In this document: positions 18,587 to 27,192 of the stretch, piece by piece
Layout: each line of letters begins with the position of its first letter
Numbering within the stretch: position 1 is the first letter of the stretch
DNA from: Thermoactinospora rubra
GTDB lineage: Bacteria; Actinomycetota; Actinomycetes; Streptosporangiales; Streptosporangiaceae
Assembly: GCF_002093975.1 (NCBI RefSeq)
Contig: NZ_MSZZ01000024.1
Span: forward strand, 62,001 to 126,000
Direction of reading: 5' to 3'
Length of the DNA: 64,000 nt
Notes under the pieces: model-generated
The model's input: only the letters and a program-made list of their open reading frames with translations
Database searches by the model: none
What the model was told of the DNA's origin: nothing
Made by a program: the position numbers and the translations under genes

Positions 18587-18621
18587 GCGGACGACCTGCC
18601 GCGCAAAGCGCGGAACGTCGG

Positions 18622-19006
18622 TGGAGGTAGCGGGAATCGAACCCGCGTCCTTCAACCCCAAATCAAGGCTTCTCCGGGCGCAGCCTGCTGGTCGCTTTTC
18701 TCAGCCCCGGCGCTCACGCAGGCAAGTCGCCGACAGGCTCAGCCACTGTGAGATTTCCCGGCAGCCCCCGTGGCCGGGGCTACCGGTTGAGCCTTCTAGT
18801 CGATGCCAGATCCTGAGCCGAAGGCGCTCTCAGGCTGACAGCGGGTCGCTGCGATCAGGCAGCGAGAGCCAGGGAGTCCTGGCTAACCGCAGTGCGCTTA
18901 GAGTTGGCACTTATTTGTCGCGGTCACAGGATTAACGAGGTTATGTCCGCCGTCCTCGGCCCGCTTCCCCTGACTTGCAAGGTCAAAGTCGAGACCAGTC
19001 ACCCCC
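18622..19006 (-). ncRNA. ssrA: tmRNA (ssrA), copy 1
   Basis: Transfer-messenger RNA that rescues stalled ribosomes. The 5' end GGGGGTGACTGGTCTCGAC and 3' T-arm GCGGGTTCGATTCCCGC form the tRNA-Ala-like domain with the G3-U identity pair. The reading frame from 18908 to 18855 encodes the tag ANSKRTAVSQDSLALAA followed by TGA. Compared with copy 2 it has two changes, both turning G-C into G-U pairs: acceptor position 7, and one pair in the long helix next to the tRNA-like domain (CCTTGATTTG instead of CCCTGATTTG). The 3' end is followed by CCG rather than an encoded CCA. The mRNA-like region is identical to copy 2. Confidence 0.95.
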
Positions 19007-19048
19007 TGTGGAGTTGTCAACACGCCTCACGAGGAGGTGCGCAGCAAG

Positions 19049-19078
19049 ACCATATTTTCCCAACACCGATGACGCCAA
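19049..19078 (-). promoter_or_regulatory. Promoter of ssrA copy 1
   Basis: Read on the minus strand: -35 TTGGCG (19073-19078), an 18-base spacer and -10 TATGGT (19049-19054), conserved in both copies. Initiation here would give a precursor with a 5' leader of about 35 nt for RNase P to remove. A closer -10-like GACAACT differs from GATAACT in copy 2. Confidence 0.5.
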
Positions 19079-19213
19079 CTCCATTCCCGCCCACGACATG
19101 ACTCCGCACCGTACGGCCGGGAATGACGGCGCCCCCTCCGAACGCCTTGGTCGCCGCAAAGCAGCCCCGCCGTGGCGCCAGCCGTACACCACGACCGTGC
19201 AGCGGCACCCACC

Positions 19214-19376
19214 AACGCCGGCAGCACCCAAGACAGCAACCCCTGAGGGGTGCCTCGGGCGTTCACGCCCGAGGCTGCGAGGGACGCGGCTCGGTCTGGA
19301 CTGAGGAGCGGTGAGGGCGCCCAGCGCCCGAGCCGCGACGAGGGAAGACCGAGCCTTCCCGGCGTCCCGAGCACCG
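19214..19376. other. Structured non-coding element, left copy
   Basis: A block of about 163 bases conserved at 26992-27155 although the sequence between it and ssrA has diverged. It holds a perfect 10-bp hairpin with TTCA loop (19252-19275), long-range arms CGCGGCTCGG (19285-19294) and CCGAGCCGCG (19328-19337), a nested GGGCGC-cca-GCGCCC, and GGGAAG/CTTCCC. No coding frame fits. It could be a small RNA, a regulatory leader or a dispersed intergenic repeat. Confidence 0.55.
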
Positions 19377-19380
19377 GCCG

Positions 19381-19749
19381 GAGCCGGCCCTGACACCCGA
19401 AGACTCGGCCGGCCTCCAGCCGCTCCCGCCCGAGCTGGTCTTCCCCAAGCACCTGCTGGACCGTTACGAGGCCAGGATCCTCGACCCCGCGACGGCCGAG
19501 CTGGACGCGGGCGAGACGCCGCCCGACTCCGCGGTCTACCGGGCGAGGGTGCTGCTCATCCCGGCCCGGCTGCTCGACGCCGACGGCCCGCAGCCCATCA
19601 TCAAGGAGGCCCTGGAGACCGTGGGCATGGCCGTCGTGGCGCACGACGGCCGGGGAGCCGGCGACGCCGGGCTCCGCTGGCGCGCCGTCCCCACCGGCCA
19701 TCCCGCACCCGGCCCGTCCAGATCACTCTCCTGGACCTGCCGGGAGTAG
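19381..19749 (+). pseudogene. Gene remnant, 5'-truncated at the edge of the repeat block
   Basis: An open frame with no plausible start begins at the repeat-block boundary: LTPEDSAGLQPLPPELVFPK, then RYEARILDPATAELDAG, VYRARVLLIPARLLDADGPQ and IIKEALETVGMAVVAHD, stopping at 19749. Codon use (third-position G/C) and composition look like real protein, not a shadow. The N-terminal part is missing and the last 25 or so residues look scrambled (PAPGPSRSLSWTC). It may descend from the N-terminal region of an actinobacterial S8-peptidase-type protein, but that match is from memory and weak. Insertion of the repeat block probably beheaded it. Confidence 0.45.
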
Positions 19750-19825
19750 CCCCACGAGACCTCCGCTGACGACCGGCCACCTGCGGACAACGGGTCTGGC
19801 CGGCCCTCCGGCCTGTCCGAGAAGG

Positions 19826-26371: not shown

Positions 26372-26759
26372 TGGTGGAGGTGGCGGGAATCGAACCCGCG
26401 TCCTTCAACCCCAAATCAGGGCTTCTCCGGGCGCAGCCTGCTGGTCGCTTTTCTCAGCCCCGGCGCTCACGCAGGCAAGTCGCCGACAGGCTCAGCCACT
26501 GTGAGATTTCCCGGCAGCCCCCGTGGCCGGGGCTACCGGTTGAGCCTTCTAGTCGATGCCAGATCCTGAGCCGAAGGCGCTCTCAGGCTGACAGCGGGTC
26601 GCTGCGATCAGGCAGCGAGAGCCAGGGAGTCCTGGCTAACCGCAGTGCGCTTAGAGTTGGCACTTATTTGTCGCGGTCACAGGATTAACGAGGTTATGTC
26701 CGCCGTCCTCGGCCCGCTTCCCCTGACTTGCAAGGTCAAAGTCGAGACCAGTCACCCCC
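26372..26759 (-). ncRNA. ssrA: tmRNA (ssrA), copy 2, canonical position
   Basis: A second complete tmRNA gene with the same 5' end, mRNA-like region and ANSKRTAVSQDSLALAA tag as copy 1. Acceptor pair 7 is G-C and the long helix pairs fully (CAAGTCAGGG with CCCTGATTTG), and CCA is encoded at 26372-26374. It lies downstream of smpB on the same strand, the usual actinobacterial location, with only the PBP-like gene between. It is therefore probably the ancestral gene and copy 1 the derived one. The promoter is conserved upstream, and its own 17-bp terminator follows. Confidence 0.97.
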
Positions 26760-26802
26760 TGTGGAGTTATCAACACGCCTCACGAAGAGGCGCGCAGCAA
26801 GA

Positions 26803-26832
26803 ACCATACTTTCCCAACACCGATGACGCCAA
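26803..26832 (-). promoter_or_regulatory. Promoter of ssrA copy 2
   Basis: Minus strand: -35 TTGGCG (26827-26832), 18-base spacer, -10 TATGGT (26803-26808). A closer -10-like GATAACT begins about 12 bases before the mature 5' end and reads GACAACT in copy 1, so copy 1 may have lost one initiation signal. Confidence 0.5.
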
Positions 26833-26991
26833 CTCCATTCCCGCCCACGACATGACTCCGCACCGTACGGCCGGCTGACCCTTCCGACCGTCCCCGGTGG
26901 CCGCGAAGCCGTCTTGGCCGTACACCACCTCGCCCCGGCCGAGGCCAGCACAAAGGACAGAGCAGTGGTACCCCACCAACCAACGCCTGCA

Positions 26992-27155
26992 AACGCCGGC
27001 AGAACCCAAGACAGCAACCACTGAGGGGTGCCGAGGGCGGTCAACGCCCGAGGCCGCGAGGGGCGCGGCTCGGTCTGGACTGAGGAGCGGTGAGGGCGCC
27101 CAGCGCCCGAGCCGCGACGAGGGAAGACCGAGCCTTCCCGGCGCCCCGAGCACCG
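26992..27155. other. Structured non-coding element, right copy
   Basis: Counterpart of 19214-19376. The CGCGGCTCGG/CCGAGCCGCG arms, the nested GGGCGC hairpin and GGGAAG/CTTCCC are preserved. The first hairpin is altered: GCCGAGGGCG faces CGCCCGAGGC. Conservation across a diverged spacer suggests function or an independent repeat family. Confidence 0.55.
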
Positions 27156-27192
27156 TCGCGCCGCCAGGCGCGACAAATCAACAGAGACGAAT

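Follow-up and report, generated by a model that had tools for sequence, protein, structure and literature searches.

The stretch from 19214 to 19376 of the window, by which we mean the whole 64,000-nucleotide segment of the Thermoactinospora rubra genome analysed here, is, judging from sequence comparisons, in all likelihood one member of a so far uncatalogued family of actinomycete mobile elements, which are non-autonomous and about 115-190 bp long. The copies are dispersed, their number varies between relatives, and clean empty sites are found in sister species. They also favour start codons, as shown statistically, and one end of the element carries a ribosome-binding site and a start codon.

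Two copies, W1 and W2, are present in the window (Table 1). The sequence-only reading had reported a close match of about 163 bases between 19214-19376 and 26992-27155, and this match is real: 155 of 163 aligned positions are identical, 46 of 51 in the first part (19214-19264 versus 26992-27042) and 109 of 112 in the second (19265-19376 versus 27044-27155). The match stops at 19376 because W1 is cut before the last hairpin, while the full W2 copy reaches to about 27183. Just to the right of W1 there is an open frame (19390-19766) that looks coding by eye and has no Pfam match.

Table 1. Coordinates in the window of the two element copies, their predicted parts and the neighbouring ssrA genes.
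Feature	Position	Strand	Remarks
W1 element copy	19214..19376	+	5' extension and P1-P3 core, without the 3' hairpin P4
Optional 5' hairpin P0 (GCCTCGGGCGT..ACGCCCGAGGC)	19252..19277	+	present also in W2, L009, L010 and L011
P1, 5' strand	19281..19287	+	partner 19362-19368
P2, 5' strand	19288..19297	+	partner 19346-19355; covariation strongest (in alignment A1, 98% of cells paired)
Invariant core, 5' side GGACTGAGGAG	19298..19308	+	faces 19337-19347; drawn as two tandem G.A steps
P3 hairpin, loop variable	19308..19336	+	
Invariant core, 3' side GACGAGGGAAG	19337..19347	+	
W2 element copy, complete with P4 and 3' tail	26992..27183	+	intergenic, upstream of the ancestral ssrA
P4 hairpin of W2 (GTCGCGCC..GGCGCGAC)	27155..27174	+	
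3' tail of W2 (AAATCAACA)	27175..27183	+	family consensus ATNANCACA
ssrA (tmRNA) of the duplicated segment	18620..19006	-	neighbour, outside the element
ssrA (tmRNA), ancestral locus	26372..26759	-	neighbour; adjoins penicillin-binding protein and ftsX genes

The plus strand folds better than chance with a z value of -5.8, compared with -2.9 for the minus strand, and is therefore the structured strand. In the 22 copies from the host genome that were aligned in full, 92.2% of the cells were paired, 22 of the 41 pairs had changed on both sides and 71 cells contained double changes. None of 500 shuffles reached any of the five covariation measures for these copies, and pairing was at most 49% in a control with slid partners. 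The corresponding values for 54 matches in the genus were 87.4% paired cells, 32 of 41 pairs changed on both sides and 279 double-change cells. The best helix is P2 (96.9% paired), and the outer pairs of P3 fit less well, with 79% in A2, an alignment that was made to the model itself and the counts of which lean towards the modelled structure. Paired positions contained G.T 84 times versus 19 times for A.C, as expected if the plus strand folds. The core is a purine-rich internal loop, GGACUGAGGAG / GACGAGGGAAG, that hardly varies; two tandem G.A steps flanking a G-C pair are one way of drawing it. The compensatory changes among the copies show that the plus strand keeps one predicted fold, with an invariant core, a 3' hairpin and a ATNANCACA tail. 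The 10-bp arms pointed out previously, CGCGGCTCGG (19285) and CCGAGCCGCG (19328), are present, but covariation backs the pairing of 19288-19297 with 19346-19355 instead.

BLAST searches of the host genome (8.2 Mb in 113 contigs) identified 24 places with E-values below 1e-7, and a covariance model, R2, yielded 27 matches at E-values, rough for this model, of at most 0.01. The idea of a dispersed intergenic repeat was thus borne out. A covariance search had been suggested for distinguishing matches that track ssrA from matches that scatter; they are scattered, which refutes the idea of an ssrA element, but the abundant compensatory changes are not those of a plain repeat. R2 matched in 17 of the 39 genus genomes (E ≤ 1e-3) and in 57 of the 120 family genomes (E ≤ 1e-4). 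Of 394 genomes from the class, 16 contained the exact core pattern, and by count from the listing these correspond to 16 of 41 genomes of its own family and 0 of 353 others; the reversed pattern, used as a control in the same scan, gave 0 matches. A scan of named genomes recovered at least 117 stretches, from Actinomadura, Nonomuraea, Streptosporangium, Herbidospora, Microtetraspora, Planotetraspora and others, and the matches listed also include Kribbella and Virgisporangium as well as weaker or partial matches in Actinophytocola and Gordonia. The element is thus patchily distributed and not exclusive to its own family, occurring in Kribbella and Virgisporangium as well as in genera of the Streptosporangiaceae type. 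Copies are arranged head to tail in arrays and fall into subfamilies confined to particular lineages, indicative of lineage-specific amplification. No match to the element was obtained in the plasmid or phage collections, and two stretches matched in IMG/VR.

A known Rfam RNA family was ruled out since the element had no match above the gathering score, and the HEARO family (RF02033) matched neither at gathering nor up to E = 10 on 19000-19500. The hammerhead ribozyme motif includes CUGANGA, stem I and GAAA; it was considered on account of a CUGANGA and rejected, as inspection by eye revealed neither stem I nor GAAA. A literature search of open-licence PMC papers retrieved no description of this element. 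Small structured non-autonomous repeats such as YPAL/RU-2 were already known, but this family seems to be new, as do its covariation and its preference for start codons.

Evidence of mobility comes from sites that are empty in relatives. We searched 12 Kribbella genomes with the joined flanks of nine Kribbella copies and obtained many continuous matches, i.e. empty sites; since these were chosen for the continuous match, they prove the existence of such sites, not their frequency. Comparison with sister species defines a discrete insertion of about 115-130 bp without terminal inverted repeats. At L250, for example, the occupied site reads GGTCATG-element-GTCATG-CTGAC and the same site in two sister species GGTCATG-CTGAC, a pattern with which L231, L252, L253 and L205 agree. 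The target duplication is 4-6 bp long and is clean at these five Kribbella loci (GTCAT/GTCAC) and, in the host genus, at prfA (L025, GTGA), but not at L212 and L283 in Kribbella, nor at L023, L024, L028, L015 and L017. Other empty sites in the host genus are hyuA-hyuB (8 relatives), sufC-sufS (4), L017 (4), L015 (3) and L024 (2), in addition to prfA (3). At some of the Kribbella sites, several species carry a copy, which may be intact, decayed or shortened by an internal deletion. In its flanks at L231, the empty species G523 is nearer to K. soli than are some of the occupied species, so that loss of the element, exchange of alleles or repeated insertion takes place as well.

Derivatives with internal deletions were identified in the host genome (L051, L053, L054, L055) and in Kribbella (L350/L423). 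In L051, L053, L054, L055 and L423, both ends are kept and all or most of P2-P3 is lost. We also observed, at L207 and L248 in Kribbella, an element nested in the P3 loop of another element, and divergent pairs of copies that are about 60-125 bp apart (L278, L274, L216) or more widely spaced (L256). In the loci examined, we found no convincing split core with an ORF inside, as for an autonomous form or a parent IS; the one candidate was a case of 122/190 bases (L262).

To relate the copies to genes, we called genes with a home-made codon-score caller and kept 127 of 147 matches, those dropped being short (<100), antisense or duplicate, plus one poor match. In Kribbella, the neighbour at the 5' side of the element is on the opposite strand in all 22 copies, and the 5' end of the element reads on that strand GGGAGGCCCC, or a close variant, followed by [A/G]TGAC. 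A frame of at least 80 codons begins there in 19 of the 22 copies, versus 325 of the 704 RTGAC sites that these loci provided as controls (Fisher p = 2.7e-4). For the other genera, 103 copies were kept after a slightly different de-duplication, and 31 of these have ATG or GTG in the tail. This start opens a frame of at least 80 codons in 22 of the 31, versus 431 of 948 control [AC]ATGA sites (p = 0.006), and a GGAG-like motif precedes it in 17 of the 22. With a tail start codon in only 31 of 103 copies, landing at start codons is a preference rather than a rule. The hyuB gene of the host genome illustrates the outcome: relatives have GTGACTGAC where the element's own ATG stands, and HyuB appears to start from this ATG.

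In Kribbella, the 5' end sets GGGAGGCCCC, on the opposite strand, directly before an RTGAC start; in other genera the 3' end can give the downstream gene GGAG, seven bases and ATG, so that the gene would stay translatable after the landing. The folded plus strand, as RNA or as single-stranded DNA, is probably what the mobilising enzyme recognises, and this recognition would be the selection that preserves the core and the helices. These observations can also be combined into a more far-reaching mechanism, which we put forward tentatively and regard as more doubtful than probable. It would involve mobility through a folded RNA or single strand with a new core, an enzyme that places the element at start codons (ATGA/GTGA), and a ribosome-binding site and start codon of the element's own that keep the gene on. 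If true, the element would represent a bacterial "start-codon cassette" whose mover belongs to none of the three enzyme classes tested, namely Y1 transposase, TnpB and reverse transcriptase (RVT_1). In actinomycetes that produce antibiotics, the family can reshape the leaders of many genes as well as their start sites, and start-codon annotation can be misled, since an annotated ATG may be that of the element. Deep covariation and a target beside translation starts make it testable how a small element inserts without silencing genes, and by which enzyme a folded strand without terminal inverted repeats is moved. Our search for the transposing enzyme found none: across genomes, copy number follows neither TnpB nor Y1 nor RVT_1.

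A SINE-like retroposon, the folded RNA of which is reverse-transcribed into nicked target DNA, would account for the asymmetric ends, the short target duplications, the conserved 3' hairpin and tail, and the repeated 3'-end-only units right behind full copies at L018 and L020. We nevertheless consider it unlikely, because RVT_1 is absent from copy-bearing genomes (G103, G065, G075, G134), G088 has eight RVT_1 matches and no element, and solo 3' ends are few in the host genome (7 places in all with a strict tail pattern). Dependence on a reverse transcriptase was rejected for the RVT_1 types on the basis of these four genomes; a retroposon that uses a reverse transcriptase outside RVT_1 is possible, and so is a DDE enzyme acting on unlike ends. 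The 3'-end-only units, which consist of the P1 3' strand, P4 and the tail, lie directly behind full copies (L018 2618-2670, L020 2547-2600, L009 2646-2690) and resemble 5'-truncated copies.

Alternatively, selection might have spread a cis-acting regulatory RNA, riboswitch-like or a protein-binding leader, among the genes of a regulon. The invariant core and deep covariation, the many copies directly before start codons and a downstream gene co-oriented with the copy in 20 of 22 cases in the host genome all agree with such a role. We hold it to be quite improbable given that the genes are unrelated (uvrC, prfA, sufS, hyuB and an ABC transporter, as assigned by eye, and tRNA neighbours), that the upstream neighbour in Kribbella is consistently on the opposite strand (22 of 22) and that sites are empty in relatives. 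Moreover, one copy is located between convergent genes (L016), 6 of 127 are almost wholly (at least 80%) inside called genes, and the same loci also contain copies that are decayed or have internal deletions.

An IS200/IS605-type derivative, in which the element is a TnpB/IscB guide-RNA scaffold (omega RNA, HEARO-like) mobilised by a Y1 transposase in trans, would fit a structured, strand-specific RNA with a 3' hairpin, the lack of terminal inverted repeats and the ATGA/GTGA-like targets, and one truncated copy, L051, is situated about 300 bp past a TnpB domain. Insertion of IS200/IS605 elements is not known to give a target duplication, whereas our element has one. Furthermore, G087 has 25 core matches and neither TnpB nor Y1, G103 has 33 core matches but lacks Y1, zero copies are present in G035 and G107, both of them rich in TnpB and Y1, and RF02033 is not matched. 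As copies and Y1/TnpB do not co-occur, a derivative of this type (PATE/REP/omega RNA) was rejected and seems very improbable to us. HEARO integrates at ATGA/GTGA sites, and our element is similar in this respect. The HEARO RNA or IscB omega RNA (RF02033) is moreover, as ours would be, a structured RNA of a mobile element (PMC9755519); unlike it, our element has a target duplication and no RF02033 match, and no HNH/RuvC gene was noticed beside the copies in an unsystematic look.

Of the small repeats described previously, YPAL/RU-2 of Yersinia is a short (168 bp), non-coding and dispersed repeat with internal, not terminal, inverted repeats, target duplications of 3-26 bp and a mobilising enzyme that is not known, the targets being areas of dyad symmetry (PMC2229807). 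The element is likewise short, non-coding, dispersed and mobile, with internal inverted repeats and target duplications of variable length, but the resemblance is one of kind: the hosts are different and so, it seems, is the sequence, and start codons are targeted instead of dyad symmetry. MITEs are non-autonomous, have no ORF, are dispersed and generate short target duplications (PMC2229807, PMC10969869). The element shares these features, with a duplication readable at six loci (GTCAT/GTCAC/GTGA) and unclear at seven others. It differs from MITEs in that the fold is conserved on one strand and its ends, GGGNGC... and ...ATNANCACA, are non-complementary and so do not form terminal inverted repeats; in the loci examined, no parent IS was found. 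The Rickettsia palindromic elements, which can insert in frame within genes (PMC10969869), are similar in size, and an in-frame insertion also occurs here (sufS, L028); unlike them, our element lands mostly at start codons, and no shared peptide frame was established.

At both window sites the element is located upstream of and divergent from ssrA. The ssrA genes with their promoters (18620-19120 versus 26373-26874) are about 99% identical and encode the same tag, and the segment on the W1 side adjoins GH5 and GH9 cellulase genes. The sequence to the right of W2 matches the region upstream of ssrA in relatives and the neighbours are the genes for penicillin-binding protein and FtsX, so the ancestral locus is that of W2, where the element was inserted. 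W1 belongs to a duplicated ssrA segment, the homology of which ends at 19376, within the element, and it would have arisen by a duplication of the ssrA region with a breakpoint inside the element. In the genus listing there is one ssrA match per relative. The two window copies are conserved because both belong to this one duplicated segment. That the element is a small RNA or a regulatory element of ssrA, as was also proposed, is scarcely credible even with both window copies and one in Thermomonospora echinospora upstream of the gene, because matches are dispersed in the host genome (27), the core is absent within 900 bp upstream of ssrA in all 12 genus relatives inspected, and 199 of 201 loci scanned have no tmRNA neighbour. 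A conserved association with ssrA was therefore rejected (0 of 12 relatives), and the copies beside the gene are best explained as bystanders of it.

The two remaining loci (L218 6369-7041; also L083) were taken as a single site in T. echinospora on the basis of the same tag and the same geometry, the element being oriented divergently to ssrA and 168 bp upstream of it. This independent copy may hint at an insertion hotspot. As noted in the sequence-only reading, the spacer between the element and the ssrA promoter is diverged: about 19121-19213 is alignable only as short gapped pieces. The spacers (19121-19213 versus 26875-26991) differ strongly although both sides are 95-99% identical, for which our guess is that gene conversion has acted on ssrA and on the element.
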